DNA of 64,000 nucleotides, taken from contig NZ_WBJX01000002.1 of NCBI RefSeq assembly GCF_008831075.1, forward strand, positions 124,001 through 188,000, written 5' to 3'. The notes beneath the pieces were generated by a model, which saw only the letters and a program-made list of their open reading frames with translations, searched no databases and was not told where the DNA came from. The DNA comes from Pseudoclavibacter terrae (GTDB taxonomy: Bacteria > Actinomycetota > Actinomycetes > Actinomycetales > Microbacteriaceae). Shown one piece after another: positions 10,717-25,569 of the stretch (positions within the stretch are counted from its first letter, which is position 1; each line of letters begins with the position of its first letter). Both the position numbers and the translations under genes were made by a program.

Positions 10717-10895
10717 CCTCACCTCCCGCGCCCCAGGGCTCCGTGCTGCGCCTCGACCACCCCCAGGCGATGCCTCTTCGCACCGCGGCTCACGAGCACT
10801 TATGAGCACAACTCCTCGTGGAGCTCCCCGCGTTGGAGCGCGATGCAATCCTAGGGCGATATTGCGGAGACAACGATGTCCGCGCGAATGGAGCG
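10717..10895. promoter_or_regulatory. Divergent promoter region between the CitA-type kinase and tctC
   Basis: A 179-base gap separates the two divergent starts. It should carry the promoters for both units and the response-regulator binding sites. I see an A/T-richer patch at about 10846-10876 (CCTAGGGCGATATTGCGGAG) on the tctC side. No clean direct or inverted repeat was found by eye, so no operator is assigned. Confidence 0.4.
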
Positions 10896-11939
10896 ATGAT
10901 GATCCGAGAAACGAACGAGCCGGCGGCACCGGACGAACCGGGCAGGCAGGCCAAGTCCGGCGGCAGGCGCGTCGTCGGCCGCGTCATCGGCGGGGTCGTC
11001 GCCGCCGCGTCGATCGCCGTCGCGAGCTTCGGCTCGATCACCTCCGCCGCGGCGGGTCAGGACATCAACGCGTCGATGACGATCATCGCCCCGGCGGCTG
11101 CCGGTGGTGGATGGGACACCGTCGCCCGCGAACTGCAGCAGGCGCAGAAGGCCAACGGGCTCGTCAACAACGTGCAGGTGGTCAACATGCCAGGGGCCGG
11201 CGGAACGATTGCGCTCGGCAATGTTGCTGTGCTGGACGGTGAACCCAACAACCTCCTCGTCGGTGGGACCGGCCTGCTGGCCGCCACCATCCAGTACGAC
11301 TCCGCGGCGAAGCTCGAAGATGTCACGCCGCTCGCGGTGCTGGTCGAGGAGTACGACGTCATCGTCGTCCCAGCCGACTCCCCGTACGAGACCCTCGAGG
11401 ACCTCGCGACGGCATGGAAGGCCGACCCGAAGTCCATCCCCTGGACGGGCGGCGGCTCGTTCGACCAGCTCGTGGTGACCGACCTCGCGCTGAGCGCAGG
11501 CATCGAGCCCGTCGACACCACCTACATCTCATCTGACGGCGGCGGCGAGGCCATCCAGGCGCTCCTCAACGGAACGGCGCAGGCCGCGGCAGGAGGCTAC
11601 GCGGACAATATCGACCAGATCGAGGCCGGCAGGCTGCGCGCCCTCGCGGTCGTGGCGAAGGAGCCCATCGAAGGCGTCGACATTCCGACGGCCGCCGAGC
11701 AGGGCTACGACATCTCGCTCACGAACTGGCGCTCGATCCACGCTCCCTCCGGCTTGACCGAGGAGCAGACGGACGCCCTCGCCGAACTCGTGGTCGAGAC
11801 GACCCAGACACCCGAGTGGCAGGACGCCATCGACAGGTACCACTGGAACGAGCGCCTCATCACCGGCGACGAGCTCGACACCTTCCTCGCTGACGAGGAA
11901 CTGCGCATCAAGGAGCTCTACGAGGAGATGGGACAATGA
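10896..11939 (+). CDS. tctC: Tripartite tricarboxylate transporter substrate-binding protein TctC
   Basis: A 347-residue extracytoplasmic solute-binding protein of the TctC (Bug) family. After a charged N-region rich in Pro/Glu/Gly, a hydrophobic export segment (about residues 27-50, VVGRVIGGVVAAASIAVASF) ends near an AAAGQ sequence. The mature part has the family hallmarks MTIIAPAAAGGGWDTVARELQ, NMPGAGGTIALG, and DVTPLAVLVEEYDVIVV. There is no lipobox Cys. TctC captures the carboxylate and hands it to the TctAB membrane complex. ATG 10896 follows GGAG by six bases; the next codon is also ATG. It is the first gene of tctCBA, with stop overlapping tctB. Confidence 0.88.
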   Translation: MMIRETNEPAAPDEPGRQAKSGGRRVVGRVIGGVVAAASIAVASFGSITSAAAGQDINASMTIIAPAAAGGGWDTVARELQQAQKANGLVNNVQVVNMPGAGGTIALGNVAVLDGEPNNLLVGGTGLLAATIQYDSAAKLEDVTPLAVLVEEYDVIVVPADSPYETLEDLATAWKADPKSIPWTGGGSFDQLVVTDLALSAGIEPVDTTYISSDGGGEAIQALLNGTAQAAAGGYADNIDQIEAGRLRALAVVAKEPIEGVDIPTAAEQGYDISLTNWRSIHAPSGLTEEQTDALAELVVETTQTPEWQDAIDRYHWNERLITGDELDTFLADEELRIKELYEEMGQ

Positions 11940-12565
11940 CGCACCACGCGAACCCGACGGCCGCGTCGGCGGTCATCGGCGGAGACCTGACCTTCGCCGC
12001 CGGCCCAAGCAAGACGGCCACCCTCCTCAAGGGACTGACGATGCCGCTCGTCATCGCAGCCTTCGCCACCTACCTCGTCTTCGGCATCTTCACGATGAAG
12101 GTGCCAGAGGGGGCCGACTTCCCTGGGCCGCAGTTCTTCCCCGGCCTCATCGCCGCCGGCCTGTACCTCTTCGCGGTGCTGCTCGCCGTCGGTGCCGTCC
12201 GGGAGATGCGCGCGACCACGGCCACTCCGTCGACGATGACCGAGGAGGAGCTCCTCGCCCGCGCACTGGCCGACGACGAGGCGCTTGCCGCGGCGGGCGC
12301 AGCAGACGCCCCCCGCAAGGTGCGCGTCGACGTGAAATCGTTCGCCTGGGTCGTCGGCTCCTTCCTGGTGTTCTCGCTGACGCTCGACGTGCTCGGCTGG
12401 GTCATCGCAGCCGCCCTCCTCTTCTGGTGCGTGGCCCGCGGCTTCGGCTCGACGAAGCCAGTGGCGAGCCTCGTCGTGGGCTTCACGCTCAGCTCGCTCG
12501 CCTACATCGCCTTCGACATGGCACTCGGCATGTCGCTCCCGTCCGGCATCCTCGGAGGTATCTGA
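11936..12565 (+). CDS. tctB: Tripartite tricarboxylate transporter small membrane subunit TctB
   Basis: A 209-residue integral membrane protein with about four hydrophobic segments (residues 34-53, 66-86, 138-158 and 173-195) and a hydrophilic acidic insert in the middle (TEEELLARALADDEALAAAG). Size, topology and position between tctC and tctA identify the small TctB subunit, although its sequence is poorly conserved in general. The ATG overlaps the tctC stop by four bases and tctA begins two bases after its stop, so the three genes are translationally coupled. Confidence 0.85.
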   Translation: MTHHANPTAASAVIGGDLTFAAGPSKTATLLKGLTMPLVIAAFATYLVFGIFTMKVPEGADFPGPQFFPGLIAAGLYLFAVLLAVGAVREMRATTATPSTMTEEELLARALADDEALAAAGAADAPRKVRVDVKSFAWVVGSFLVFSLTLDVLGWVIAAALLFWCVARGFGSTKPVASLVVGFTLSSLAYIAFDMALGMSLPSGILGGI

Positions 12566-12566
12566 C

Positions 12567-14111
12567 ATGGAAACGCTCCAACTCCTCATGGAGGGGTTCG
12601 CCGGTGCCCTCACCTGGCAGAACCTCGTGTGGGTCTTCGTCGGCTGCCTCCTCGGCACCGCCGTCGGCGTCCTGCCGGGCCTCGGGTCCTCGATGGCGGT
12701 CGCCCTCCTGCTGCCCGTCACGTTCTCGCTCGAGCCGACGGCCGCGTTCATCATGTTCGCCGGCGTCTACTTCGGCGGCCTCTTCGGCGACTCGACCATG
12801 GGCATCCTGATGAACACGCCAGGCCAGGCGTCAGCCATCGCCTCCACGTTCGAGGGGCACAAGATGGCGCTGAACGGCCGAGCCGCTCAGGCGCTCGCGA
12901 CGGCTGCCATCGGCGCATTCATCGGTGGCTTCGTCGCCTCGATCGTGGTGGTCTTCCTGGCCCCTGCGCTTGCCGACTTCTCCAGCAGCTTCGGGCCGGC
13001 GGAGTTCTTCGCCCTCGCAGTGTTCGCGTTCGCGGCGACCTCCACCGTGGTCACCGACAACGTCGTCAAGGGGCTCACGGCCCTGTTCATCGGCCTCGGC
13101 ATCGCGGTCATCGGCATCGACGGCGTCTCCGGCGCCCCGCGCTTCACGATGGACTCCCCGCAGCTGTTCGACGGCATCTCGCTGGTGACCGTGACGGTCG
13201 CGGTCCTCGCGCTCGGTGAGGTCATCTACGTCGCCTGCCTCGAGCGGCACGTCAGCGACAAGGGCCTGATCCGACCGAAGGGTCGCCCGTGGCTGAGCCG
13301 CAAGGAATTCAAGGAGGCCACGCCGGCCTGGCTGCGTGGCACCGTCATCGGTCTTCCGTTCGGTGTGGTGCCGGCCGGTGGCTCCGAGATCCCCACGTTC
13401 CTCGCCTTCGGCTTGGAGAAGCGACTGGATGCGCGCCGCAAGGACCCGCAGTTCGGCAAGGGCGCGATCAGGGGCCTCGCAGCCCCGGAGGCGGCTGGCA
13501 ACGCGACGACGGGCATGGCGATGGGTGCGCTCCTGGCGCTCGGCCTCCCCATCTCGGCGACGGCGGCGATCATGCTCGCCGCGTTCCGCCAGTACGGCCT
13601 GCAGCCGGGCCCGCTGCTCTTCGACCGCGCCCCCGAGCTGGTCTGGGCGCTGCTCGCGAGCTTCTTCATCGCCATGGTGGTGCTGCTCGTCCTGAACCTG
13701 CCGTTCGCGATGCTGTGGGCGAAGCTGCTCCTGATCCCTCGCCCCTACCTGTACGCGGGCATCACGATCTTCTGCGCGCTCGGCATCTACGCCACGTCGG
13801 GTTCGACGTTCGACCTGCTCATGCTGCTCGGGGTCGGCCTGCTGGGCTTCCTGATGCGGGCTCTCGACTTCCCGATCGCACCGCTCATCATCGGCATGGT
13901 CCTCGGCCCGCTGGCCGAGACGAGCCTGCGGGATGCGGCGATGAGCGCCAACGGCGACTTCTCCGTGCTGGTGCAGGGGCCGATCGCGATCGCGCTCTAC
14001 ACCCTCCTGGCGCTGGTGCTCGCCTTCACCGTGCGCGGCCGCCTGGTGGCTCGCAAGCGTGCGAAGCAGGAGCAGAAGGAAGAGGAGCTCGTGAGCTCCT
14101 CAGCACGATAG
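12567..14111 (+). CDS. tctA: Tripartite tricarboxylate transporter permease TctA
   Basis: A 514-residue multi-pass permease with around 12 hydrophobic segments. Family hallmarks are the opening FVGCLLGTAVGVLPGLGSSMAVALLLP, of which GTAVGVLPGLGS is the key motif, then YFGGLFGDSTMGILMNTPGQ and the mid-protein repeat GVVPAGGSEIPTFLAFGLEK followed by GNATTGMAMGALLALGLPIS. This is the large, channel-forming subunit, driven by an ion gradient. It ends in a Lys/Glu-rich cytosolic tail (RKRAKQEQKEEEL). It lies two bases after tctB. Substrate (citrate, tricarballylate, tartrate or another carboxylate) cannot be read from sequence. Confidence 0.9.
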   Translation: METLQLLMEGFAGALTWQNLVWVFVGCLLGTAVGVLPGLGSSMAVALLLPVTFSLEPTAAFIMFAGVYFGGLFGDSTMGILMNTPGQASAIASTFEGHKMALNGRAAQALATAAIGAFIGGFVASIVVVFLAPALADFSSSFGPAEFFALAVFAFAATSTVVTDNVVKGLTALFIGLGIAVIGIDGVSGAPRFTMDSPQLFDGISLVTVTVAVLALGEVIYVACLERHVSDKGLIRPKGRPWLSRKEFKEATPAWLRGTVIGLPFGVVPAGGSEIPTFLAFGLEKRLDARRKDPQFGKGAIRGLAAPEAAGNATTGMAMGALLALGLPISATAAIMLAAFRQYGLQPGPLLFDRAPELVWALLASFFIAMVVLLVLNLPFAMLWAKLLLIPRPYLYAGITIFCALGIYATSGSTFDLLMLLGVGLLGFLMRALDFPIAPLIIGMVLGPLAETSLRDAAMSANGDFSVLVQGPIAIALYTLLALVLAFTVRGRLVARKRAKQEQKEEELVSSSAR

Positions 14112-14130
14112 CTGTCAGGGACGCGAGGGT

Positions 14131-15063
14131 TCAGACGCTGCTGGTTCCCGGCGTCTGGCCGACCATGGCGGCGGCGATCGATTCGATCGTCGCCGCCATG
14201 GCGCGTGCGGCGCGTGAGAGGGGCACGTCGCTCCGGTGCGCGAGGCTCACGGTGCGCTGCAGGTTCGAGTCGGTGAGGCGGGCCGAGCGGAAGCCCTGCC
14301 GCCCACGCAGCACCATGGCCGGCACGACCGCCACGCCGAGGCCCAGCTCCACGAACCGGAGCACCGCATCCATCTCGGGGCCCTCCACGATCACGTTCGG
14401 CTGCAGGCCAGCCTCGACGTAGGCGGCCTCCGTGGTCGCGCGGAGGTCGTAGCCGCGATGGAAGACGACCTGCGGCTTGGCGGCGAGCTCCGTGAGCGTG
14501 AGCGTGGGGGAGTCGAGCGCGGCCGTGCCCTGCGCCGCGGAGACGACGAGCAGCTCCTCGTTGAGCAGAGGAACCCTCGAGAGCGTCGCGCGCGGCGTCT
14601 GCCGGGACTCGGGGGTCGTGATGAGCGCCAGGTCGAGTGCGCCTTCCGCGAGCTGCTCGATGAGCCCCTGCGAGCCGCTCTCCGAGACGTGCAGCTCGAT
14701 GCCGGGGTGCGACGCGTGGAACGACTGCAGCGCATCCGCGACAAGGCTGACGCAGAGCGACGGGGTCGCCCCGAGGCGCACCGTGCCGCGCTGCAGGTCG
14801 GCGAGCTCCGCCATCTCGCGGCGCACCGAGTCGGCGTCGGCGAGCATGCGCCGCGCGAGCGGGAGGAGGGATTCGCCGGCGTCGGTGAGCGCGACCCGGC
14901 CTGGCGTGCGGTTGAAGAGCGGCGCCCCGAGGTCCTGCTCGAGGGTCGAGATCTGTCGACTCAGGGAGGGCTGCGCGAGGTGCAGCGCCTCGGCCGCCCG
15001 CGTGAAATGCCCCTGCGAGGCGACTTCGACGAAACTCCGCAACTGGTCCAAGTTCATGGCCAT
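14131..15063 (-). CDS. LysR family transcriptional regulator
   Basis: A 310-residue regulator with an N-terminal winged helix-turn-helix (LDQLRSFVEVASQGHFTRAAEALHLAQPSLSRQI in residues 4-37; key piece HLAQPSLSRQI) and a LysR-type effector-binding domain (GTVRLGATPSLCVSLVADAL onward). Two in-frame ATGs two codons apart (15063 and 15057) are both possible. It ends close to the tctA stop on the other strand and is divergent from the fumarate-reductase-like flavoprotein gene, the usual place for a LysR activator of its neighbour. It may thus control the flavoprotein, with the tct genes under the two-component system. Confidence 0.85.
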   Translation of the reverse strand: MAMNLDQLRSFVEVASQGHFTRAAEALHLAQPSLSRQISTLEQDLGAPLFNRTPGRVALTDAGESLLPLARRMLADADSVRREMAELADLQRGTVRLGATPSLCVSLVADALQSFHASHPGIELHVSESGSQGLIEQLAEGALDLALITTPESRQTPRATLSRVPLLNEELLVVSAAQGTAALDSPTLTLTELAAKPQVVFHRGYDLRATTEAAYVEAGLQPNVIVEGPEMDAVLRFVELGLGVAVVPAMVLRGRQGFRSARLTDSNLQRTVSLAHRSDVPLSRAARAMAATIESIAAAMVGQTPGTSSV

Positions 15064-15097
15064 AGCCTACGCGCATCACCACGAACAGCACTATGCA

Positions 15098-15134
15098 TTG
15101 GAGTAATCACGCCGGGCTCTCTACCGTTGCTGAC
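15098..15134 (+). promoter_or_regulatory. Promoter of the flavoprotein gene, leaderless transcript
   Basis: TTGGAG (15098-15103), an 18-base spacer and TACCGT (15122-15127) are followed seven bases later by the ATG at 15135. This supports ATG 15135 rather than the in-frame ATG at 15093, which lies upstream of the promoter. No Shine-Dalgarno sequence precedes the start. A LysR-type ATGCATTGGAGTAAT stretch (15094-15108) overlaps the -35 box and is a candidate binding site for the divergent LysR protein. Confidence 0.55.
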
Positions 15135-16874
15135 ATGACAGCGACCAAGTCCATCGAACGCCAGATCTCCACCACCGTGCTGGTCATCGGAACCGGCGGT
15201 TCCGGCCTGCGCGCCGCCATCGAAGTCGCCGAGCAGGGCGTCGACGTGCTCGCCGTCGGCAAGCGCCCCAAGCATGACGCGCACACGTCCCTCGCCGCGG
15301 GCGGCATCAACGCCGCGCTCGGAACCATGGACGAGGAGGACAGCTGGCAGCAGCACGCCGCCGACACCATCAAGGAAAGCTACTGGCTCGCCAACCCGCA
15401 CACCGTCGAAATCGTGACCCGCGGCGCCGAGCAGGGCATCCGCGACCTCGAGCGCTACGGCATGGGCTTCCAACGCGAGGGCGACGGACGCATCTCGCAG
15501 CGCTTCTTCGGCGCCCACAAGTTCCGCCGCACCGCCTTCGCCGGCGACTACACCGGACTCGAGATCCAGCGCTCCCTCGTCGCCCGCAGCGAGCAGCTCG
15601 ACATCCCGATCCTCGACACCGTCTACATCACGCGCATCCTCGTGAGCGACAACGTCGTCTTCGGCGCCTACGGCTTCGACATCAACGACGGAACCCGGTA
15701 CCTCATCCACGCCGACTCCGTGATCCTCGCCGCGGGCGGCCACAACCGCATCTGGCGACGCACCTCCTCCCGCCGCGACGAGAACACGGGCGACTCGTTC
15801 CGCCTCGCCGTCGAGGCCGGCGGGCGACTCCGCGACCCGGAGCTCGTGCAGTTCCACCCGTCCGGCATCATCGAGCCAGAGAACGCGGCCGGAACCCTCG
15901 TCTCCGAGGCCGCCCGCGGCGAGGGCGGCATCCTCACCAACGGCCTCGGGGAGCGCTTCATGGAGCGCTACGACCCCGAGCGCATGGAGCTCTCGACCCG
16001 CGACCGCGTGGCGCTCGCCGCGTACACGGAGATCAAGGAGGGGCGCGGCACCGCGAACGGCGGCGTCTGGCTCGACGTGTCGCACCTGCCCCGCGAGACC
16101 ATCATGAACCGCCTCCCTCGCATCTACCAGCAGATGCTGGAGCTGCAGATGCTCGACATCACGGAGAAGCCGATCGAGATCGCCCCGACCGCGCACTACT
16201 CGATGGGCGGCGTCTGGGTGCGACCCGACGACCACAGCACCGACGTCGACGGCCTCTACGCCATCGGCGAGGCCTCCAGCGGACTGCACGGCGCGAACCG
16301 CCTCGGCGGCAACTCGCTCATCGAGCTGCTCGTGTTCGGCCGCATCGTCGGCCAGGCAGCCGTCGCCCACTCCGGGGGACTGGATGCGCAGCGCCGCTCG
16401 GCAGCCGCCGTCGCGCAGGCGCGCGGCGAGATCAACGACCTGCTTTCGGCCGACGGACGCGAGAACGTGCGCGCCCTGCAGCGCGCCATCCGCGACACGA
16501 TGACGGAGTACGCGGGCGTCGTGCGCGACGAGGACGGGCTGAAGGCGGGCATCGCGGCGCTGGACGTCATCGAGTCGCGCATGGAGGACGTCGGCATCCA
16601 CCCGGACATCGCGGGCTTCCAGGACCTCGCGCACGCCTTCGACCTCAAGTCGTCGGCGCTCGCCGCACGCGCCACGCTGGAGGCTGCCCTCGAGCGCCGC
16701 GAGACGCGCGGCTGCCACAACCGCAGCGACTTCCCGGAGCTCGACCCGGCCATGCAGGTGAACCTCGTGTGGTCGCCGAACGGCGGCATCACGCGCGAGG
16801 AGATCCCACCAGTGCCCGCCGAGATCGCCGAGCTCATCGGCGAGGTCTCCGTCGAGGGCAAGCTCGTCGAATAG
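15135..16874 (+). CDS. FAD-dependent succinate dehydrogenase/fumarate reductase-type flavoprotein
   Basis: A 579-residue flavoprotein of the SdhA/FrdA/L-aspartate-oxidase superfamily. It has the FAD fold VLVIGTGGSGLRAAIEVAEQG (about residues 15-35), the flavin-contact HTSLAAGGINAALG, substrate/catalytic segments QFHPSGI and PTAHYSMGGVWV, the second FAD segment GEASSGLHGANRLGGNSL, and the Arg-rich C-terminal domain. It therefore probably oxidises or reduces a di- or tricarboxylate across a C-C bond. No iron-sulfur subunit or membrane anchor gene lies beside it, unlike a respiratory complex, so it could act alone (as aspartate oxidase does) or like tricarballylate dehydrogenase with a distant partner. 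Position next to tctCBA supports a carboxylate substrate. ATG chosen from the promoter position. Confidence 0.85.
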   Translation: MTATKSIERQISTTVLVIGTGGSGLRAAIEVAEQGVDVLAVGKRPKHDAHTSLAAGGINAALGTMDEEDSWQQHAADTIKESYWLANPHTVEIVTRGAEQGIRDLERYGMGFQREGDGRISQRFFGAHKFRRTAFAGDYTGLEIQRSLVARSEQLDIPILDTVYITRILVSDNVVFGAYGFDINDGTRYLIHADSVILAAGGHNRIWRRTSSRRDENTGDSFRLAVEAGGRLRDPELVQFHPSGIIEPENAAGTLVSEAARGEGGILTNGLGERFMERYDPERMELSTRDRVALAAYTEIKEGRGTANGGVWLDVSHLPRETIMNRLPRIYQQMLELQMLDITEKPIEIAPTAHYSMGGVWVRPDDHSTDVDGLYAIGEASSGLHGANRLGGNSLIELLVFGRIVGQAAVAHSGGLDAQRRSAAAVAQARGEINDLLSADGRENVRALQRAIRDTMTEYAGVVRDEDGLKAGIAALDVIESRMEDVGIHPDIAGFQDLAHAFDLKSSALAARATLEAALERRETRGCHNRSDFPELDPAMQVNLVWSPNGGITREEIPPVPAEIAELIGEVSVEGKLVE

Positions 16875-17093: not shown

Positions 17094-18917
17094 TCAGCGG
17101 CCGGCTGGGGTCGGCTGCTCCTGCTCCGGCTCCTGCTCCGGCTCCGGCTCCGGCTGCGGATCGGCGTCGAGCGTCGTCGACGACGCCGCGGGCTTCCGCG
17201 CGGGGCCGTGCACTGGGAGGCGCAGGACGCCCGTGCGCAGATCCTCGCGGCGCACGTCCTTCGTGTAGTCGAAGTGCGGGTCCTCGCGCAGCTGCAGGAT
17301 GAGGGAGACTCCGAGCAGCGCGACGATGATCGTGAACGGCAGCGCCGACAGCATCGCTGCCTGCTGCAGCGCCGCGAGCCCGCCCGTGAGGAGCAGCAGC
17401 GACGCGCAGAGGCCCGTGAGGAGGCCCCACACGGTGAGCACCGGCTTGGCCGGTTCGAGCGCACCTCGAGACGAGAGCATGCTCAGCACGAACGTGTTCG
17501 CGTCGGCGCCTGAGATGAAGAACAGGACGACGAGGACGATCGCGATCACCGAGGTGATCTCCACGAGCGGCAGGTTCGAGAGCATCTCGAAGAAGGCCGA
17601 GTTCACGTCGGCAGTGGCTGCGGTCCCGATGCTGCCGTCGCCGTCGAGGTCGAACTTGATCGCGGAACCGCCGAAGATCGTGAACCAGCCGAAGAACACG
17701 AGGCTCGGCACGACCATGACGCCGAGCACGAACTGGCGGATGGTGCGCCCGCGTGAGATCTTCGCGAGGAAGACGCCGACGAACGCACCCCAGCTCAGCC
17801 ACCAGGCCATCATGAAATAGGTCCACCACTGCATCCACTGCCCGTCGTCCGCGGTGAGCGGCGTGGTGAGGCTCATCTCGAAGAAGTTGCTCACGTAGGC
17901 CCCGGTGGAGCGCACGAAGAGGTTCGTGATGAAGTTCGTGGGCCCGACGAAGAACACGAAGATGCCGAGCGCGACCGAGGCCAGCATCGTCGCCTGGGAG
18001 ATGTACTTGATGCCGCGGTTCACGCCGGAGAGGGCCGAGAGCGTGAAGATGATGGTGATCACGGCGATGACGAGGATCTGGACGAACGTGTCCGTCGGCA
18101 GGCCCATCACTCGGTTGAGGCCCTCCGTGATCTGGGAGGCGCCGAGCCCGAGCGAGGTCGTCGTGCCGAAGAGCGTCGCGATGATGGCGAACACGTCGAT
18201 GACGTTGCCGAGCACCCCGTCGACGCGGTCGCCGAAGATCGGCCGCAGCATGGGGGAGACGAGCCCCGTGTTGCCCTTGCGGTGCGTCGAGTAGGCGATC
18301 GCGACGCCGAATACCCCGAACACGGCCCACGCGTGGGGGCCCCAGTCGAAGTAGGAGAACTGCATCGCGACGACGGCGGCCTCGACCGTGCCGGACTCGG
18401 CGAGCCCGTGCGGGGGCGTCACGAAGTGCGAGATGGGTTCTGCGACGCCGTAGCTGATGAGGCCCACGCCCATGACGGCGGAGAGGATCATCGCGAGCCA
18501 CGCCCACGTGCTGAACTCGGGGCGGTCCGTGTCCGCGCCGAGGCGGATGCGCCCGAAGCGGCTGCAGGCCAGGTAGACCAGGAGCCCGATGCAGCCCATG
18601 GTGACGAGGAGGTACGACCAGCCGACCGTGGCTGAGGCCCAGTTGATGGCGGCGGTCATGGAGCCGTTGAGGGTGTCAGGGGAGATCGCGGCCCAGGAGA
18701 CGAACGCCAGGATGAGGGCGATCGACGACCAGAAGACGACGCCTGGCCGGTGGCGGAGCGCGTCCGCGGCCGCTTGCGCGCGGCTCGGGGCGCCCAGCGG
18801 TTCGAGGCCGTGACCCGCGAACTGCGGGTCGTCCTGGTCGCTGGGATCCGCGTAATCCGAGAAGCCGGGTCCGCGCCCCGACCACCGTTCCTTGCTGGAG
18901 GTGCGTCGAGAGTTCAT
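17094..18917 (-). CDS. BCCT family transporter (betaine/carnitine/choline type)
   Basis: A 607-residue secondary transporter. The conserved BCCT stretches are visible: WAWLAMILSAVMGVGLISYGVAEPISHF (core GVGLISYGVAEP), the aromatic-rich WTYFMMAWWLSWGAFVGVFLAKISRGRTIRQF (core AWWLSWGAFVG), and GVNRGIKYIS. About twelve hydrophobic segments lie between residues 60 and 540. The usual glycine motif GMGIGL reads VMGVGL here, which often means a proton- rather than sodium-coupled or atypical carrier, but that is inference. The C-terminal tail is acidic and proline-rich (PEPEPEQEPEQEQPTP). ATG 18917 has GTGGAG upstream. It lies 76 bases downstream of the reductase fusion on the same strand, so it may import the substrate of the catabolic island. 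Confidence 0.87.
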   Translation of the reverse strand: MNSRRTSSKERWSGRGPGFSDYADPSDQDDPQFAGHGLEPLGAPSRAQAAADALRHRPGVVFWSSIALILAFVSWAAISPDTLNGSMTAAINWASATVGWSYLLVTMGCIGLLVYLACSRFGRIRLGADTDRPEFSTWAWLAMILSAVMGVGLISYGVAEPISHFVTPPHGLAESGTVEAAVVAMQFSYFDWGPHAWAVFGVFGVAIAYSTHRKGNTGLVSPMLRPIFGDRVDGVLGNVIDVFAIIATLFGTTTSLGLGASQITEGLNRVMGLPTDTFVQILVIAVITIIFTLSALSGVNRGIKYISQATMLASVALGIFVFFVGPTNFITNLFVRSTGAYVSNFFEMSLTTPLTADDGQWMQWWTYFMMAWWLSWGAFVGVFLAKISRGRTIRQFVLGVMVVPSLVFFGWFTIFGGSAIKFDLDGDGSIGTAATADVNSAFFEMLSNLPLVEITSVIAIVLVVLFFISGADANTFVLSMLSSRGALEPAKPVLTVWGLLTGLCASLLLLTGGLAALQQAAMLSALPFTIIVALLGVSLILQLREDPHFDYTKDVRREDLRTGVLRLPVHGPARKPAASSTTLDADPQPEPEPEQEPEQEQPTPAGR

Positions 18918-18961
18918 GTGTTGCTCCACTTCGTGATGTGGCATGGCCCAGGTGGGCAGGT

Positions 18962-18993: not shown

Positions 18994-19938
18994 TCAGAGC
19001 TGCGAGAGCCCGCGTCCGTCGAAGAACTTGCCGGCCTTGTAGAGGATGGGCGCGTCGTCGGTGGTCGTCGCGTGGTGCACGCGGCCGATGAAGATGGTGT
19101 GCGTGAGCGCCTGGAAGCGCTCCTTGATCTCGACCTCGATCGAGGCTGAGGATCCGTCGATGAGCGGGCTTCCCTCGGGCGCTTCGTGCCAGGTGATGTC
19201 GGCGAACTTGTCTGCGCTCTTCGAGGCGAAGGTCGCGAGCACGTCCTGCTGCTCGCTCGAGAGGATGTTGATGCCGAGGTTCGTGGAGCGGAAGAGCGAC
19301 GGGTAGGTGGAGGAGGACTTCTGCACGCACACGAGCACGAGGGGCGGGTCGAGCGAGACCGAGGAGTAGGCGCTCACGGCGAGCCCGCGCGGCTTTCCGT
19401 CTTCATCCTTGGTCGTCACGACGGTGACGCCGGAGATGAACTGCTTGTTGAACGCCTTGAGCATCTCGCGCGGGGGAGCCGTGGACTCGTCCGCGTAGTC
19501 GGCGTCGGCGTCCTCGAACGCGGAATGCAGGGACGGGAGTCCGAGGTGCGTGAGGAGCTCGGCGGAGTCCCAGGTGACGCGCTCGTGGGAGATGAGGCCG
19601 TCTCGGAGCGTGGCGTAGTTGGATCCGTTCGTGATGACGCGCTTGCCGGTCGGGGGGACGGTGCCGAGCGGCTGCGTGAACGTTCCGTCTGAGGTCCAGA
19701 AGACGGCCAACGCGTCGTCTTCCACGAGGACGCGATCGATGCGCGTGACCAGGTCGGGGAACGCGGCGCGCACCTCGGTGACCTCCTGCTTGAACTCGTC
19801 GAGTGTCGAGACTCGACCTGACCTTGTGCTCTCGCGCTGGTAGTCCGGGGTCACGAGGGCTTCGAACGCACCGAAGTCACCCCGATCCCACGCGTCGGAC
19901 CATGCAGCTGCGACAGCATCTTTGATGTTTGCTTGCAT
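18994..19938 (-). CDS. NTF2-like (SnoaL/ester-cyclase type) domain fused to a flavin reductase
   Basis: A 314-residue two-domain protein. Residues 1 to about 135 match the NTF2/SnoaL-like ester-cyclase fold (AWSDAWDRGDFGAFEALVTPDYQRES, here in part, then FPDLVTRIDRVLVEDDALAVFWTSDGTF and PPTGKRV). Residues about 155-314 are a flavin reductase of the HpaC/FlaRed type (MLKAFNKQFISGVTVVTT, GLAVSAYSSVSLDPPLVLVC, LGINILSSEQQDVLATFAS, ending YKAGKFFDG). The reductase half should supply reduced FMN/FAD to the luciferase-like monooxygenase encoded in the same island at 24526. The SnoaL-like half may bind a pathway intermediate. ATG 19938 is chosen because promoter and -10 lie directly upstream, making an in-frame upstream start impossible on that transcript. 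Divergent from the GntR regulator. Confidence 0.8.
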   Translation of the reverse strand: MQANIKDAVAAAWSDAWDRGDFGAFEALVTPDYQRESTRSGRVSTLDEFKQEVTEVRAAFPDLVTRIDRVLVEDDALAVFWTSDGTFTQPLGTVPPTGKRVITNGSNYATLRDGLISHERVTWDSAELLTHLGLPSLHSAFEDADADYADESTAPPREMLKAFNKQFISGVTVVTTKDEDGKPRGLAVSAYSSVSLDPPLVLVCVQKSSSTYPSLFRSTNLGINILSSEQQDVLATFASKSADKFADITWHEAPEGSPLIDGSSASIEVEIKERFQALTHTIFIGRVHHATTTDDAPILYKAGKFFDGRGLSQL

Positions 19939-19975
19939 GCAACGGAGCGTAACCCCGTGGTCATGCATGCGTCAA
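19933..19975 (-). promoter_or_regulatory. Leaderless promoter of the reductase fusion with operator palindromes
   Basis: On the minus strand, TTGACG (19975-19970), an 18-base spacer and TACGCT (19951-19946) precede the ATG at 19938 by seven bases. The start codon lies inside the perfect palindrome TTGCATGCAA (19933-19942). A second palindrome CATGCATG (19962-19969) occupies the spacer. Both are good candidates for binding by the divergent GntR regulator, which would then block polymerase and the leaderless start directly. Confidence 0.6.
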
Positions 19976-20019
19976 CGATTGGTTGTAAACGTTGTGTTTC
20001 CTGGGAAATGCTCCGTTCG

Positions 20020-20061
20020 TTGACAATTCTGTGGCATGCCAGATAGCGTTCTTGTATGCAA
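20020..20061 (+). promoter_or_regulatory. Leaderless promoter of the GntR gene with operator palindromes
   Basis: TTGACA (20020-20025), an 18-base spacer and TAGCGT (20044-20049) precede the ATG at 20056 by six bases. As in the facing promoter, the spacer contains a palindrome (TGGCATGCCA, 20032-20041) and the start codon is embedded in TTGTATGCAA (20052-20061). This mirror-image arrangement suggests one repressor controlling both directions, including its own gene. Confidence 0.65.
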
Positions 20062-20763
20062 CAGATCACGCCCCTGGGGCTCAGCGATGAGGCCTACGCC
20101 GACCTCCCGCTCCTCGAGCGACTCCGCCGCCTGGTCACGAGCGGCACCTACCCTCCGGGCGATCCCATGCCCGAGCTGGTGCTCGCTCAGGAGTTCGGGG
20201 TGAGCCGAACACCCATCAGGGAGGCGCTCAAGCAGCTCGAGAACGAGGGGCTCGTCGAGATCCGTCCGCGCGTCGGAACGTTCGTGCGCACCCCCACCCG
20301 GCGTGAGATCGTCGAGCTCTTCCAGCTCAAGGAGTCCCTGGAGGGCCTCGCCGCCAACCTGCTCGCCCGCCGCGGGCCGACCTCCGAGCTGGCGACCCTC
20401 TCGCGAAACCTCGACGAGAGCGACGCCGCGGTCCACGCCGGCGACACCGCCGAGTACGCACGGCTCGTCCACGAGTTCCACTGGACGATCGTGCTCGGAG
20501 CCGACAACGCCAAGCTCGCCGAGCACTACGAGCGGCTCATGAACCAGCTCGCCTACCACCGCATCGTGCTCCGCACCATCGAGCGGCCGGGCCGACTGCT
20601 CGCCTCCAACCACGAGCACCGCGCCGTCGTGCGCTCCATCGTCGAGAAGGACGCCATCGGGGCCGAGTTCGCGATGCGCACCCACGTCGAGGCCTCGAGC
20701 CGCGCAGCGCTCGCCCCGGCCGACCACGGCAACCCAGCCGACAGCGAGCCCGCGCACGCCTGA
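20056..20763 (+). CDS. GntR family (FCD/FadR subfamily) transcriptional regulator
   Basis: A 235-residue regulator. Residues about 13-80 form a GntR winged helix with PMPELVLAQEFGVSRTPIREALKQLENEGLVEIRPR, of which FGVSRTPIREALKQLE is the diagnostic helix-turn-helix. Residues 90-225 are the all-helical FCD ligand-binding domain with FQLKESLEGLAANLLARR, the metal-binding pattern around HEFHWTIVLGADN, and a late SNHEHRAVVRSIVEKDA histidine segment. FCD regulators usually respond to carboxylic acids or pathway intermediates. It is divergent from the reductase fusion and 54 bases upstream of the DUF1185 genes, so it is the local regulator of the catabolic island. The start follows its own promoter without a Shine-Dalgarno sequence. 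Confidence 0.88.
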   Translation: MQQITPLGLSDEAYADLPLLERLRRLVTSGTYPPGDPMPELVLAQEFGVSRTPIREALKQLENEGLVEIRPRVGTFVRTPTRREIVELFQLKESLEGLAANLLARRGPTSELATLSRNLDESDAAVHAGDTAEYARLVHEFHWTIVLGADNAKLAEHYERLMNQLAYHRIVLRTIERPGRLLASNHEHRAVVRSIVEKDAIGAEFAMRTHVEASSRAALAPADHGNPADSEPAHA

Positions 20764-20817
20764 ACCGCGCCGAGCACCCCACGCTCAGATGATCAGCACC
20801 GACCACCAGGAGTCACC

Positions 20818-21474
20818 ATGACCACCACCGTCACAGCGGCAGCGCCGCGCGGGGATGCAATCACGGACCGAGCGCTCGCGCTCGGCGTCCGCAGAATCTT
20901 CACCGCCTACGAGGACGTCATCTCCGACGGCGGCGTCGACGCGCCCACCGCCATCCGCCAGGCCAGCGCGGTCGCCGTCGTCCGCAACCCGTGGATCGGC
21001 GAGGGACCGCTCGCCGACCTCACCGAGGCCACGGCCGAGGTCGCTCCCATCGTCGCGAAGCTCCTCAGCGACCGTCTGCTCGCCGCAATCGGCGGTGCCG
21101 ACCGTGTCGAAGCGTTCGGGAAGGCGGCGGTCGTCGGCCTGGACGGCGAGATCGAGCACGCCGGTGCCCTCATCCACACCCCGTACTTCGGCAACCTGCT
21201 GCGCGAGTTCCTCGAGGGCACCTCGATCATCTGCTTCTCCGACACGCGAGCCGACGCGGGCGGCGACCTCCGGGTGCCCCTGTGGCACAAGACGGCCGCA
21301 GCCACCCGCAGCCACTACCAGTCACTCGACGTGCACCTCGCGGATGCGCCGCACCGCGACGAGATCGCGGTCATCGCGGTCGCATCCTCCGGCCCCCGAC
21401 CCCACCCCCGGATCGGCGACCGGACCACGGACGTGCCGGTCACCTCCGACATCCTGAAAGGAATCGAAGCATGA
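20818..21474 (+). CDS. DUF1185 ('amino acid synthesis') family protein, copy 1
   Basis: A 218-residue protein of the DUF1185 family. Characteristic stretches are FGKAAVVGLDGEIEHAGALIHTPYFG (core GLDGEIEH), RSHYQSLDVHLADAPHRDEI and SSGPRPHPRIGDR near the end. A GGAG-like ribosome site (CCAGGAGTCACC) lies just upstream. The family name 'amino acid synthesis' is historical; the biochemical activity is not established to my knowledge, although structures of the family exist. The stop overlaps the start of copy 2, so the pair is translationally coupled and may form a heteromer. The genomic setting points to a catabolic role. Confidence 0.8.
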   Translation: MTTTVTAAAPRGDAITDRALALGVRRIFTAYEDVISDGGVDAPTAIRQASAVAVVRNPWIGEGPLADLTEATAEVAPIVAKLLSDRLLAAIGGADRVEAFGKAAVVGLDGEIEHAGALIHTPYFGNLLREFLEGTSIICFSDTRADAGGDLRVPLWHKTAAATRSHYQSLDVHLADAPHRDEIAVIAVASSGPRPHPRIGDRTTDVPVTSDILKGIEA

Positions 21475-22022
21475 AGGTTCGCAAGATCATCACCATCGTC
21501 GACGAGACGCTCATCGAGGGCGGACGAGAGGTCTCCCCGTCGGCGCGCACCGCCGTCGTCGCGGCCATCATCGACAACCCGTGGGCCGGCCAGGGCTTCG
21601 TCGACGACCTCAGCGCCGGCATCGACGCGGTCGCCTCCGACCTCGGCGCCCTCCTCGCGCCCCGCGTCATCGAAGCGCTCGGCGCTCCGCTCGAGGCCTA
21701 CGGCAAGGCCGCCATCATCGGCCTGAACGGGGAGATCGAGCACGGCTCCGCGATCATCCACACGCTCAAGTTCGGCGACCACTTCCGCAAGGCGGCGAAC
21801 GCGAGCACGCTGCTCCCCGCCGTCGAGAAGCGCGGACCCGCCGGTGTGGCGTTCGACATCCCCCTCAAGCACTTCACCGACGCCACCATCCGATCCCACC
21901 ACCAGTCGTTCGAGGTGCGGATCGCTGACGCGCCGCATCCCGACGAGATCCTCATCGCCCTCGCCGGTGCGGCGCAGGGGCGCCCGCAGCAGCGGCTCGC
22001 GGCGCTCTCCACCGAGCTGTAG
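21471..22022 (+). CDS. DUF1185 ('amino acid synthesis') family protein, copy 2
   Basis: A 183-residue paralog of the preceding protein. It aligns through VDDLSAGIDAVASDLGALLAPRVIEALG, YGKAAIIGLNGEIEHGSAIIHTLKFG (core GLNGEIEH), RSHHQSFEVRIADAPHPDEI and a shorter QGRPQQRL end where copy 1 has RPHPRIGDR. It starts within the ATGA overlap, which fixes the start codon although the same frame is open further upstream. The paired, divergent copies suggest a two-subunit enzyme or a sequential reaction in the pathway. No catalytic residue can be assigned with confidence; the conserved EIEH and RSH-Q motifs are the best candidates. Confidence 0.8.
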   Translation: MKVRKIITIVDETLIEGGREVSPSARTAVVAAIIDNPWAGQGFVDDLSAGIDAVASDLGALLAPRVIEALGAPLEAYGKAAIIGLNGEIEHGSAIIHTLKFGDHFRKAANASTLLPAVEKRGPAGVAFDIPLKHFTDATIRSHHQSFEVRIADAPHPDEILIALAGAAQGRPQQRLAALSTEL

Positions 22023-22035
22023 GCGAGAACCCGCC

Positions 22036-22809
22036 GTGAGCTCGACCGAGGCGCAGACCCCCATCGTGCTGCTGCACGGAGTGGGGCTCGATCGAACGAT
22101 GTGGACTCCCGTCGCGGAGCTCCTCGGCCCCCGGGCCGTCGCACTCGATCTCCCTGGCCACGGAGCCCAGTCGCCGCTGCGCACCCCCACGTCGCTCGCC
22201 GACTTCGCGGCCGACGTCGAGCGGCGTCTCCCAGACGGGCCGATCCACCTCGTCGGCTTCTCGCTCGGCGCGCTCGTCGCGCAGCACATCGCGAGCCGCG
22301 CACCGGAGCGCGTCGCGACGCTCACCTGCGTCAGCTCGGTCTGCAGGCGCACACCGGATGAGCGTGCCGCGGTGCTCGCGCGTCTCGCGTCGGCGCGCAC
22401 CGACTTCGGCGCGACCGTCGAGCGCTCGCTCGAGCGCTGGTACTCGGGCAGCGGCGTTGGCGCCGCGACGGTCGCCGAGACGAGGCGAGTGCTCGAAGCC
22501 AACGACGTCGAGTCGTTCGGGCACGCCTACGAGATCTTCGCGACCGGCGACCAGCAGGTGTCGGCGGCACTCGGCGCGATCACGGCGCCGACCCTCGCCA
22601 TCACGGGCGAGCTCGACCCAGGATCGACCCCGGACATGACCCGCAGGCTGGCCGAGGCCATCCCCGCGGCGCGGACCCGCACCGTCGCCGGGGTCCGGCA
22701 CATGCTCCCGGTCGAAGCACCCTCGACGCTCGTCGACGAACTCGAAGCGCTCATCGGCGGGCGCCCCACCTCACCCCACCCCCAGGCATCACGAAGGAGC
22801 ACACCATGA
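22036..22809 (+). CDS. Alpha/beta fold hydrolase (3-oxoadipate enol-lactonase-like)
   Basis: A 257-residue serine hydrolase beginning with GTG. Sequence elements in order are VLLHGVGLDRTMW (oxyanion), LDLPGHGAQS, the nucleophile elbow VGFSLGALVA, the acid segment ITGELDPGSTP and the catalytic His in VRHMLPVEAP. The opening and lid pattern resemble 3-oxoadipate enol-lactonases and meta-cleavage hydrolases, which hydrolyse ring-opened products, so a similar C-C or C-O hydrolysis is plausible here. It ends in an ATGA overlap with the aldehyde dehydrogenase. The GTG at 22036, 13 bases after the previous stop, is preferred because the family domain begins right after it; the frame is open upstream. 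Confidence 0.8.
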   Translation: MSSTEAQTPIVLLHGVGLDRTMWTPVAELLGPRAVALDLPGHGAQSPLRTPTSLADFAADVERRLPDGPIHLVGFSLGALVAQHIASRAPERVATLTCVSSVCRRTPDERAAVLARLASARTDFGATVERSLERWYSGSGVGAATVAETRRVLEANDVESFGHAYEIFATGDQQVSAALGAITAPTLAITGELDPGSTPDMTRRLAEAIPAARTRTVAGVRHMLPVEAPSTLVDELEALIGGRPTSPHPQASRRSTP

Positions 22810-24287
22810 CTGACCGCTACGGCCACTTCATCGACGGGTCCTGGCGCGACCCCGCCGGTGGCGCCTACTTCGAGAGCATCAACCCGGCCACGCTGGAGGT
22901 GCTCTACGAGGCGGCCCGCGGCGATGCGGCCGACGTCGAGCTGGCCGTCGCAGCTGCAAGGCGCGCGTTCGAAGCGCCCAGCTGGAGCGGCCTCACCGCG
23001 ACGCAGCGGGGGAAGCTGCTCCGCCGCCTCGGCGACCTCGTCGCTGAGAACGCCGACGAGCTCGCCCGCCTCGAGAGCCTCGACAACGGCAAGCTCCTCC
23101 GCGAGATGCGCGGCCAGCTCGCCTCCCTGCCCGAGTACCTCTACTACTACGGCGGGCTCGCCGACAAGATCCAGGGCTCGCAGATCCCGACAAGCAACCT
23201 GCAGATCCTCAACTACACGCAGCACGAACCGCTCGGCGTGGTCGGCGCGATCACGCCATGGAACTCTCCGCTCACCCTCACGACGTCCAAGCTCGCCCCA
23301 GCGCTCGCCGCCGGGAACACCGCCGTCATCAAGCCGAGCGAGTACACATCTCGCACCGTGCTCCGCTTCGCGCAGCTCGCGAGCGAGGCGGGCTTCCCAG
23401 ACGGCGTCGTCAACGTCGTCACGGGATACGGAGCCGAGGCGGGCGCCGCGCTCGTCGAGAACCCAACGATCGCGAAGATCTCGTTCACCGGGTCGACCCG
23501 CACGGGGTCCGCGATCGCAGCCAGCGCCGCGGCACGCTTCATCGGATGCACGCTCGAGCTCGGCGGCAAGAGCCCGAACATCGTGTTCGGCGACGCGAAC
23601 ATCGAGAACGCGGCGATGGGCGTCATCGCCGGCATCTACGCGGCCGCGGGGCAGACCTGCATCGCCGGCAGCCGCGTCTTCGCGCACAGGTCCGTCTACG
23701 ACGAGCTGCTCGAGCGCGTCTCGACGCGCGCGAAGTCGATCGTCATCGGCGACCCCCTCGACGACGCGACCGAGCTGGGACCCCTCGCGTTCGGCGACCA
23801 GCTCGACAAGGTCCGCTCCTACGTCGGCATCGGCGTCGACGAGGGCGCAACCCTCTACGCGGGCGGAGGCCGGCCAAACGTCGCGCTTCCCGGGTACTAC
23901 TTCGAGCCGACCGTGCTCACCGACGTCACGAACAGCATGCGCGTCGTCCGCGAGGAGATCTTCGGACCAGTCGCCGCGATCATGCCCTTCGACACCGAGG
24001 ACGAGGTCGTCGGCCTCGCCAACGACACCGAATTCGGTCTCGCCGCCGGCGTCTGGACGCAGAACCTCGCGAGAGCCCACCGCATGTCGCGGCGGCTCGA
24101 GGCCGGCACGATCTGGGTCAACACCTACCGCGCCATGTCACCCATGTCGCCGAGGCAGGGGTTCAAGAGCTCCGGCGTCGGCATCGAGCACGGCATCGAG
24201 TCGATGCACGAGTACACGCGCCTCAAGAGCGTGTGGATCAACACCGACGAGTCGCCCGTCGCCGACCCCTTCGTGATGCGGGGGTAG
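22806..24287 (+). CDS. Aldehyde dehydrogenase family protein
   Basis: A 493-residue NAD(P)-dependent aldehyde dehydrogenase. Catalytic Cys is in AAAGQTCIAGSR (C285), the general-base Glu in LELGGKSPNI (E251), and the cofactor segments ITPWNSPLTL (148-157), IKPSEYTS and SFTGSTRTG are intact. It should oxidise an aldehyde intermediate to the acid. Close relatives include 2-hydroxymuconic-semialdehyde and betaine-aldehyde-like enzymes, so the exact substrate is open. It overlaps the preceding hydrolase by four bases and is followed five bases later by the tautomerase, a gene order reminiscent of meta-cleavage pathways. Confidence 0.9.
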   Translation: MTDRYGHFIDGSWRDPAGGAYFESINPATLEVLYEAARGDAADVELAVAAARRAFEAPSWSGLTATQRGKLLRRLGDLVAENADELARLESLDNGKLLREMRGQLASLPEYLYYYGGLADKIQGSQIPTSNLQILNYTQHEPLGVVGAITPWNSPLTLTTSKLAPALAAGNTAVIKPSEYTSRTVLRFAQLASEAGFPDGVVNVVTGYGAEAGAALVENPTIAKISFTGSTRTGSAIAASAAARFIGCTLELGGKSPNIVFGDANIENAAMGVIAGIYAAAGQTCIAGSRVFAHRSVYDELLERVSTRAKSIVIGDPLDDATELGPLAFGDQLDKVRSYVGIGVDEGATLYAGGGRPNVALPGYYFEPTVLTDVTNSMRVVREEIFGPVAAIMPFDTEDEVVGLANDTEFGLAAGVWTQNLARAHRMSRRLEAGTIWVNTYRAMSPMSPRQGFKSSGVGIEHGIESMHEYTRLKSVWINTDESPVADPFVMRG

Positions 24288-24292
24288 GGGCC

Positions 24293-24490
24293 ATGCCGCT
24301 CATCGACATCTCCATCGCCAAGGGGCGCACGCCCGAGCAGCTCCGCGCCCTCATCGACGGCGTCCACCGCGTCGCCGAAGAGACCGTCGGGGCAGCGCCC
24401 GAGAACATCACCGTCGTCGTCCGCGAGATCGAGCACGAGCACTGGTCGCGCGGCAACACGACGATCGCAGAACGAGCCCGCCGCAGCTGA
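24293..24490 (+). CDS. 4-oxalocrotonate tautomerase family protein
   Basis: A 65-residue protein starting MPLIDISIAKGRTPEQL. Removal of Met would expose the Pro1 that acts as catalytic base in this superfamily. VVVREIEHEHWSRGN holds the usual second-half region, with Arg residues near the positions used for substrate binding. Such enzymes interconvert keto and enol forms of unsaturated diacids or hydrate small acids. It is 5 bases downstream of the aldehyde dehydrogenase in the same operon. Length is normal for a small 4-OT subunit, which works as a hexamer. Confidence 0.85.
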   Translation: MPLIDISIAKGRTPEQLRALIDGVHRVAEETVGAAPENITVVVREIEHEHWSRGNTTIAERARRS

Positions 24491-24525
24491 CCGCGGAGCA
24501 CATCCACTCTCGAAAGGACACGACA

Positions 24526-25569
24526 ATGCGTTTCTCTCTGTTCATCCACATGGAGCGCTGGGACGACTCCGTCAGCACCGAGCAGCTGTTCGCGGAGCTC
24601 GTCGAGCTGACGCTGCTCGCCGAGAAGGCCGGCTTCAGCACGGTCTGGATCGGCGAGCACCACTCCATGGAGTACACGATCTCGCCGAGCCCCATGCCGC
24701 AGCTCGCGTACCTCGCCGCGGTCACCACGAAGATCCGTCTCGGCGCCGGCACGATCATCGCCCCCTTCTGGAACCCGCTCCGGGTGGCTGGCGAGACGGC
24801 GCTGCTCGACGTCATCAGCGGCGGCCGCGCCGAGGTGGGTCTCGCCAGAGGCGCCTACCAGTTCGAGTTCGACCGTCTCGCCGGCGGCATGCCGGGCAAG
24901 GAAGGCGGGCAGCACCTGCGCGAGCTCATCCCCGCCGTGCGCGAGCTGTGGCAGGGCGACTACGCGCACGACGGCGAGATCTGGCAGTTCCCCGTCTCGA
25001 CGAGCGTGCCCAAGCCGGTGCAGCAGCCGACGCCGCCGATGTGGGTGGCCGCGCGCGACCCCGACACGCACGACTTCGCCGTCGCCAACGGCTGCAACGT
25101 CATGGTGACGCCGCTCATGAAGGGCGACGAGGAAGTCGCGGACCTCGTGAGCAAGTTCGAGACGGCCGTGGCGAACCATCCCGAGGTTGCGCGCCCCGAG
25201 ATCATGGTGCTGCGCCACACGTTCGTGCACGACGAGGCCGACCCTGAGGGGTGGCGTCCAGCCGCCGAAGGCGTCAACAAGTTCTACCGGACGTTCGACG
25301 CCTGGTTCGGCAACAAGACCGACCCCGTCGACGGGTTCCTCGAGCCGAGCCCTGAGGCGAAGTTCGCCGAACGACCCGAGTTCACGCCAGAGTCGCTGCA
25401 CCGGACGGCGATGATCGGCACCCCGGACGAGGTCATCACCCGACTCCGCGAGTACGAGGCGCTCGGCGTCGACGAGTTCAGCTTCTGGAGCGACAACTCC
25501 CTCTCCCACGAGCAGAAGAAGCGCTCGCTCGAGCTGTTCATCGAGAAGGTCGTTCCCGAGTTCTCGTAG
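24526..25569 (+). CDS. LLM class flavin-dependent monooxygenase (luciferase-like)
   Basis: A 347-residue bacterial-luciferase-family oxidoreductase. It shows the N-terminal strand RFSLFIHMERWDDS, FSTVWIGEHHSMEY with the typical EHH, TTKIRLGAGTIIAPFWNPLRVAGE, and GRAEVGLARGAYQFEFDRLAG, the flavin-cradling barrel elements. The family uses reduced FMN supplied by a separate reductase to insert oxygen, often opening rings or cleaving C-N or C-S bonds. The obvious partner is the reductase half of the fusion gene at 18994. AAAGGA six bases before ATG is a good ribosome site. It closes the operon started by the DUF1185 genes. Substrate unknown. Confidence 0.87.
   Translation: MRFSLFIHMERWDDSVSTEQLFAELVELTLLAEKAGFSTVWIGEHHSMEYTISPSPMPQLAYLAAVTTKIRLGAGTIIAPFWNPLRVAGETALLDVISGGRAEVGLARGAYQFEFDRLAGGMPGKEGGQHLRELIPAVRELWQGDYAHDGEIWQFPVSTSVPKPVQQPTPPMWVAARDPDTHDFAVANGCNVMVTPLMKGDEEVADLVSKFETAVANHPEVARPEIMVLRHTFVHDEADPEGWRPAAEGVNKFYRTFDAWFGNKTDPVDGFLEPSPEAKFAERPEFTPESLHRTAMIGTPDEVITRLREYEALGVDEFSFWSDNSLSHEQKKRSLELFIEKVVPEFS

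Follow-up and report, generated by a model that had tools for sequence, protein, structure and literature searches.

A gene cluster of Pseudoclavibacter terrae is most likely a rearranged actinobacterial version of the trigonelline ring-opening pathway

A 64,000-nucleotide stretch of the Pseudoclavibacter terrae genome (contig NZ_WBJX01000002.1, positions 124,001 to 188,000; hereafter the window) carries a compact set of genes around a luciferase-like monooxygenase (LLM) and two proteins of family DUF1185 (PF06684), and raises the question of which small molecule these genes serve to break down. An earlier sequence-only reading had described positions 18994-25569 as an orphan catabolic island whose substrate could not be named. 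Homology to the tgn genes of Acinetobacter indicates that the cluster is not an orphan, and that it most likely represents, in rearranged actinobacterial form, the pathway already known for opening the ring of trigonelline (N-methylnicotinate). The gene inventory of the earlier reading is borne out by Pfam and NCBIfam matches and by coordinates: a SnoaL-reductase fusion with a BCCT transporter, a GntR/FCD regulator, two PF06684 proteins, a hydrolase, an aldehyde dehydrogenase (ALDH), a tautomerase of the 4-oxalocrotonate (4-OT) type and the LLM. So is its description of a regulated catabolic unit in which the monooxygenase and the flavin reductase would start a route of oxidation, opening, hydrolysis and further oxidation. 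The genes are as follows, with the evidence for each in brackets.

17094..18944, minus strand: BCCT-family transporter, predicted to take up trigonelline or betaines (Pfam BCCT, 577.7 bits)
18994..19938, minus strand: SnoaL domain plus flavin reductase, a TgnA-type reductase of other architecture (Pfam)
20056..20763, plus strand: GntR/FCD regulator, predicted repressor (Pfam)
20818..21474, plus strand: DUF1185 protein a, TgnF-like (PF06684, 183 bits)
21471..22022, plus strand: DUF1185 protein b, a second, separate paralogue (PF06684, 200 bits)
22036..22809, plus strand: alpha/beta hydrolase in a TgnD-like position (Pfam)
22806..24287, plus strand: aldehyde dehydrogenase, TgnC-like (identity to the protein in the TgnC position of A. 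baylyi)
24293..24490, plus strand: 4-OT-type tautomerase, an actinobacterial addition (PF01361, 61.5 bits)
24526..25569, plus strand: LLM flavin monooxygenase, a TgnB-like oxygenase (51% over 347/347 residues to the A. baylyi LLM)

The BCCT gene adjoins the SnoaL-reductase gene on the same strand and lies beyond the range first described. The open reading frame (ORF) of the reductase is listed to 19968, and the start at 19938 is preferred on the basis of homologues and promoter. Four-base overlaps, which had been reported throughout, occur at only two of the six plus-strand junctions (DUF1185a/b and hydrolase/ALDH), the other four having gaps of 54, 13, 5 and 35 bases.

A named counterpart, found through a DUF1185 search, is a syntenic cluster on a plasmid record of Acinetobacter sp. 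PK01 (L010). There the reductase, oxygenase and dehydrogenase genes bear the trigonelline-degradation names tgnA, tgnB and tgnC and stand in a row with an NCS1 permease and a succinate semialdehyde dehydrogenase (SSADH). When genomes were scanned with the oxygenase of PK01, the same enzyme set came up in the Acinetobacter baylyi type strain DSM 14961 (L020), which is not the strain ADP1 of the literature. Identities between window and A. baylyi proteins are 51% for the LLM, 47% for the ALDH, 43% for DUF1185a, 38% for DUF1185b, 30% for the hydrolase and 28% for GntR; the reductases share 41% over 150 residues, within the reductase domain only. The window ALDH is closer to the protein in the TgnC position than to the A. 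baylyi SSADH (47% versus 36%) and appears from these identities to be of the TgnC type. The hydrolase is the weakest link. The LLM, ALDH, DUF1185, hydrolase and flavin reductase thus correspond to the Acinetobacter tgn cluster, so that orphan status cannot be upheld, and homologous genes assigned to a known pathway, which the earlier reading had said would overturn it, are at hand as far as homology goes. Its guess of nitrogen heterocycles and betaine-type compounds as substrates was a good one.

Clusters of the same content recur in other genera. A tblastn search of annotated plasmids with the LLM returned them in Arthrobacter, Mesorhizobium, Leisingera, Burkholderia, Caballeronia, Gemmobacter and Thioclava. 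Among the best 80 of at least 559 relatives of the PK01 oxygenase, all titled as proteobacteria, hydrolase and ALDH were matched in 80/80 loci, DUF1185 and the reductase in 79/80, and GntR in 72/80 (some at only 29-45%). The window tautomerase had no match in these 80 loci at an expect value (E) of 1e-8, although a query of 65 residues may miss distant relatives. The window LLM retains 111 of 131 columns that are invariant in 19 proteobacterial homologues, compared with 80 in both LLMs of a second subfamily (Rhizobium phaseoli and Agrobacterium fabrum, L153 and L154) and 54 in one outgroup protein; active-site residues were compared at the level of alignment only. In the tree the family is separated from most outgroup LLMs (support 98/95), one outgroup row with a branch length of 10 (L134) falling inside. 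These comparisons place the window protein, as judged from sequence, in the TgnB oxygenase family. TgnB itself is a flavin-dependent trigonelline monooxygenase, listed among luciferase-like proteins in an excerpt of PMC11354265.

Among actinobacteria the cluster is patchily distributed. At E 1e-60 the LLM was found in 3/150 genomes of the family, 10/297 of the order and 3/396 of the phylum, the P. terrae genome being counted in each. Thirteen other actinobacterial loci were read (L003 and L116-L127), and the one holding a lone truncated LLM (L126) was left out of further counts. The regulator, both DUF1185 proteins, the hydrolase and the LLM are present in 12/12 of the remainder, a clear ALDH orthologue (at least 64% identity) in 11/12, and the SnoaL-reductase in 10/12, as two neighbouring ORFs in L118, L119 and L122; L121 has a flavin reductase without SnoaL, and no reductase was matched in L127. 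The tautomerase is found in 10 of the 12 (again not in L121 and L127), and the transporters comprise eight BCCT, three NCS1 and one locus without a match. This co-occurrence is more than chance.

Two further lines of evidence support trigonelline as the substrate. The first is methylamine. Homologues of gmaS-mgsABC lie within about 2 kb of cluster genes in two actinobacterial genomes (G321, L157; G247, L158), and Allorhizobium terrae (L090) likewise has them close to its cluster; in excerpts of PMC6237917, mgsABC-gmaS constitute the N-methylglutamate route from methylamine. P. terrae has a homologue of each of these four genes, on a contig other than that of the cluster. In PK01, A. baylyi and three more Acinetobacter loci, the cluster is adjoined by genes of the sarcosine-oxidase type that could encode N-methylglutamate dehydrogenase. 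The second line is location: the Sinorhizobium meliloti homologue of the cluster is on pSymA, approximately 8 kb from noeB, the interval containing insertion sequences, and the title of a reference in PMC6297676 (Goldmann et al. 1991) places the genes for trigonelline catabolism in R. meliloti within the symbiotic region of pSym, by mapping.

Trigonelline is an osmolyte of plants and marine settings, and betaines are taken up by BCCT carriers. Perchat et al. (2018) reportedly followed trigonelline to a formamido hydroxylactone that is oxidised and then hydrolysed to succinate semialdehyde, methylamine, formate and CO2. By analogy, trigonelline, a betaine, would be imported through the BCCT carrier, and the SnoaL-reductase would supply reduced flavin with which, together with O2, the LLM oxygenase would cleave the pyridinium ring, no hydroxylation being needed first. 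The ALDH would oxidise the resulting open-chain aldehyde or the corresponding hydroxylactone, and the product would be broken by the alpha/beta hydrolase into succinate semialdehyde, methylamine, formate and CO2. An SSADH encoded elsewhere would then pass succinate into the tricarboxylic acid cycle, a step that the TgnF-like DUF1185a might aid. From gene content, homology, synteny and the promoter/operator pattern we infer the substrate, the intermediates and the repression described below; the roles given to DUF1185b, the tautomerase and the SnoaL domain are likewise our inference. Taken as a whole, the assignment of the cluster to trigonelline catabolism of the tgn type, in an actinobacterial form, is probable.

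Several observations weigh against this assignment. The function of the cluster is predicted from homology, and the A. baylyi proteins are no more than moderately similar to those of the window (LLM 51%, hydrolase 30%, GntR 28%). The LLM tree does not place the window protein inside the A. baylyi clade (proteobacterial group, support 56/87); it joins the actinobacterial LLMs weakly (82/58) to the second subfamily, which comes with the same enzyme kinds and yet is only 44-46% identical to the window protein. Transporters differ among clusters (BCCT, NCS1, ABC), and L122 has only a 40% ALDH in place of a clear TgnC-type enzyme. Besides the TgnC-like ALDH, no SSADH was found in window positions 9001-34000. 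Nor did the P. terrae genome give a match at E 1e-20 to the sarcosine-oxidase-type subunit of PK01, which 7/8 searched genomes match at 33-38%, or any match to a copper amine oxidase. The gmaS family exceeds its cut-off in only 5/12 other LLM-positive genomes. In a sample of 149 genomes from the order it does so in nine, of which four (G000, G247, G267 and G280) are LLM-positive and five, all from one family, are LLM-negative; the genomes in such counts are not independent. With regard to SSADH, the two closest homologues in P. terrae lie elsewhere in its genome and are 43% identical to the PK01 enzyme. The gene is found at 42% or more in 36/80 proteobacterial loci, with flanks of up to 8 kb, and also near the Arthrobacter cluster, so that its presence near the cluster is not universal.

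The best of the alternatives, which we nevertheless regard as rather unlikely, is that the same chemistry acts on another substrate, namely a different N-methyl or N-substituted pyridinium or heterocyclic betaine such as homarine or a nicotinate derivative. Twelve of the 13 actinobacterial LLMs form a clade of their own (100/99; L127 is outside) that is accompanied by an extra tautomerase, a second DUF1185 and SnoaL, and the window LLM departs from the proteobacterial pattern at 20 of the 131 invariant columns. The related L153/L154 subfamily has a different regulator, L154 also has a ProX-type betaine transporter close by, and tandem DUF1185 genes stand beside a 6-hydroxynicotinate-reductase gene in L012. 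Against this, the core enzyme set is the same as in tgn, and the methylamine-assimilation homologues beside some clusters point to an N-methyl substrate. For homarine in particular, excerpts of PMC8269262 state that trigonelline degradation begins with ring opening by TgnA/TgnB and argue that this reaction is unlikely on homarine. No homarine gene cluster appeared among the literature matches listed (20 of 1,852 and 20 of 42), which is not proof of absence.

A separate pathway for a non-pyridine small molecule, sharing only enzyme families with tgn, is very improbable. The LLM, ALDH, hydrolase, FCD regulator and flavin reductase do each belong to large families, and the hydrolase is only 30% identical to that of A. 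baylyi. Opposed to this are the sharp limits of the LLM family, since identities of near-full-length matches jump from 44% to below 30% with no intermediates (60 of 1258 rows sampled), and its constant company: all nine neighbourhoods opened from LLM matches of at least 44% (L003-L009, L153 and L154) contain DUF1185, ALDH, flavin reductase and hydrolase. The window ALDH, moreover, is closer to TgnC than to SSADH. That the cluster is a relic, no longer active or in decay, as the lone truncated LLM of L126 and the patchy distribution given above might suggest, is scarcely credible, the window ORFs being open across the length of their homologues and accompanied by promoter and operator patterns that recur in other loci.

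Those patterns lie between the two divergent units:

19933..19942: candidate GntR operator TTGCATGCAA, over the preferred reductase start codon (motif search)
19934..19975, minus strand: leaderless-type promoter TTGACG-N18-TACGCT-N7-ATGCA, for the reductase(-BCCT) unit (pattern search)
20020..20060, plus strand: leaderless-type promoter TTGACA-N18-TAGCGT-N6-ATGCA, for the GntR unit (pattern search)
20052..20061: candidate GntR operator TTGTATGCAA, over the gntR start codon (motif search)

The motif TTGYATGCAA has two sites in the 64 kb of the window, at 19933 and 20052, each over a start codon (shuffled mean 0.05), and recurs exactly in five of the 12 other actinobacterial loci (L003, L116, L120, L123 and L125). 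The composite promoter TTGACR-N16-19-TANNNT-N5-8-ATGCA also occurs twice in the window, divergently, and in none of 100 shuffles; it is present in eight of those 12 loci, and among 168 loci (window pieces aside) the only further occurrence was in one Acinetobacter locus (L043). The spacing sets the start of transcription at the ATG, which points to leaderless messages with a repressor site on the start point. Both units are apparently transcribed without leaders, and GntR would sit at their start points and repress both until a ligand frees it. The conservation of the promoters is consistent with co-expression of the genes. The regulator is 74% identical over 202 residues to that of the Arthrobacter cluster.

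The DUF1185 pair is tied to the LLM. In the order sample an adjacent pair was found in nine of the 10 LLM-positive genomes, one of which carries a further copy at another site. The remaining LLM-positive genome (G154) has a truncated LLM alone, without the pair, and a single DUF1185 occurs in 3/287 LLM-negative genomes. PF06684 exceeded its cut-off in 12/297 genomes, with a 13th below it (the LLM and PF06684 draws are taken as the same genomes, as their handles agree). DUF1185a and b form separate clades of 13 each (100/98 and 97/96), and a joins the proteobacterial tgn proteins and those of L153/L154 (89/86). By their sequences they appear to be anciently diverged paralogues, b being the extra one beside the tgn form, and neither looks dead, since both retain the same charged and histidine core. 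The earlier statement that the family has no established activity is nearly right. One effect is in print: excerpts of PMC7913881 report that TgnE-dependent oxidation of succinic semialdehyde is stimulated by TgnF, and that HcdD, a DUF1185 protein homologous to TgnF, showed no such effect.

Tandem DUF1185 genes are also found with genes for a 6-hydroxynicotinate reductase and a UPF0280 protein (L012:6756-10576) and with genes for a hypothetical protein and a UPF0280 protein (L013:7086-10576), another setting for such pairs, perhaps in N-heterocycle catabolism. They form a clade of their own (100/98), and pairs may therefore have arisen more than once.

A further, improbable idea is that DUF1185 proteins catalyse ring opening of the hydroxybutyrolactone (pseudo-acid) forms of aldehyde acids. 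One paralogue would serve the ring-opened formamido hydroxylactone and the other succinate semialdehyde, the 4-OT-like tautomerase would perform the Z/E step, and the reductase would have SnoaL as its partner in place of a NUDIX-like tail. If true, this would give an enzymatic activity to the unassigned family PF06684.

The reductase differs in architecture between the two groups. In six proteobacterial stand-alone reductases that were scanned, the reductase domain comes first and is followed by a tail of about 150 residues without a Pfam match, whereas SnoaL precedes the reductase domain in the actinobacterial form. A profile of 40 proteobacterial reductases matches NUDIX structures weakly in the tail (best 1.3e-6, others 0.0028), and the tail profile has no match to SnoaL, so that the two cannot be treated as one domain. 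A NUDIX-box pattern matched neither the reductases nor even the Arthrobacter NUDIX protein and is thus uninformative here. The profile of the 40 reductases matches structure 3rh7 ('Hypothetical oxidoreductase') over its length (1.1e-128), and the pSymA reductase of S. meliloti (L011:11446-12378) differs very little from that structure in sequence (1.7e-204), which suggests a role for this unnamed crystal structure through the S. meliloti cluster.

A single 599-residue protein of Mesorhizobium ciceri pMESCI01 (L004:8205-10001) combines the hydrolase with the flavin reductase of the cluster. Riboflavin kinase and NUDIX genes adjoin the Arthrobacter cluster (L003:6881-7830), and L121:10086-10451 has a 50% riboflavin kinase match, as if supply of flavin mononucleotide were part of the actinobacterial unit. 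On Arthrobacter crystallopoietes pLDW-10 (L156:6004-14959) a homologue of the window flavin-reductase domain (61.6%), aligning as a whole protein with the SnoaL-reductases, stands beside leuCD-like genes and genes for nicotinate phosphoribosyltransferase and tautomerases; the annotation of that stretch contains no LLM.

Next to the cluster, window positions 10818-16874 hold genes of a TctABC-type tripartite tricarboxylate transporter and of a LysR regulator, together with a solitary gene for an SdhA/FrdA-like flavoprotein; they may form a dicarboxylate unit of their own. The flavoprotein (15093-16874) was rejected as a cluster member because it has a tblastn match in 0/13 other actinobacterial loci, and the TctABC/LysR genes farther upstream were left out because of their distance.

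With these results a supposedly orphan cluster gains a likely substrate, and a pathway worked out in a proteobacterium is carried over to actinobacteria, in which some of its parts have changed. The swaps that are conserved (SnoaL for the NUDIX-like tail, two DUF1185 proteins for one, an added tautomerase) amount to natural experiments on helper proteins, above all DUF1185, whose role they make testable; herein lies the interest of the cluster.

Four comparisons with known systems place the cluster. First, the structures 2qtp and 3byq (DUF1185/PF06684) are sequence homologues of DUF1185b (E 2.3e-42 and 8.7e-24) to which no activity is assigned. Second, the R. phaseoli and A. fabrum subfamily has the same enzyme kinds, DUF1185 included, and differs in its LLM, a 600-residue helix-turn-helix regulator and a different gene order; its genes lie at 3550-11277 in L153 and, with the ProX-type transporter nearby, at 6466-12255 in L154, and it possibly serves another betaine. 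Third, Arthrobacter dokdonellae pDCT5 (L003) shares the gene order of the window from reductase to LLM (identities: LLM 79.5%, DUF1185b 80%, ALDH 77%), whereas it has NCS1 permease, NUDIX, riboflavin kinase and SSADH genes alongside and no BCCT in the stretch. BCCT carriers recur in eight of the 12 other actinobacterial loci, beside the Thioclava cluster and in 5/80 proteobacterial loci, and the best NCBIfam match of the window carrier is betaine_BCCT (543.6 bits, below its cut-off of 650). Fourth, the Acinetobacter tgn clusters (L020 and L010) resemble the window in having an LLM oxygenase, flavin reductase, ALDH, hydrolase, DUF1185, GntR and a transporter. In the window, by contrast, the reductase gene runs on the opposite strand and its product carries SnoaL at the N-terminus, where Acinetobacter has a C-terminal, weakly NUDIX-like half. 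The window also has two DUF1185 paralogues and a tautomerase, its transporter is a BCCT and not an NCS1 protein, DUF1330 found no match, and the cluster is without SSADH. The oxygenase, ALDH and DUF1185 fit tgn, whereas the reductase architecture and SSADH linkage differ and the hydrolase is only 30% identical, which together point to a new form of tgn that would work like tgn.

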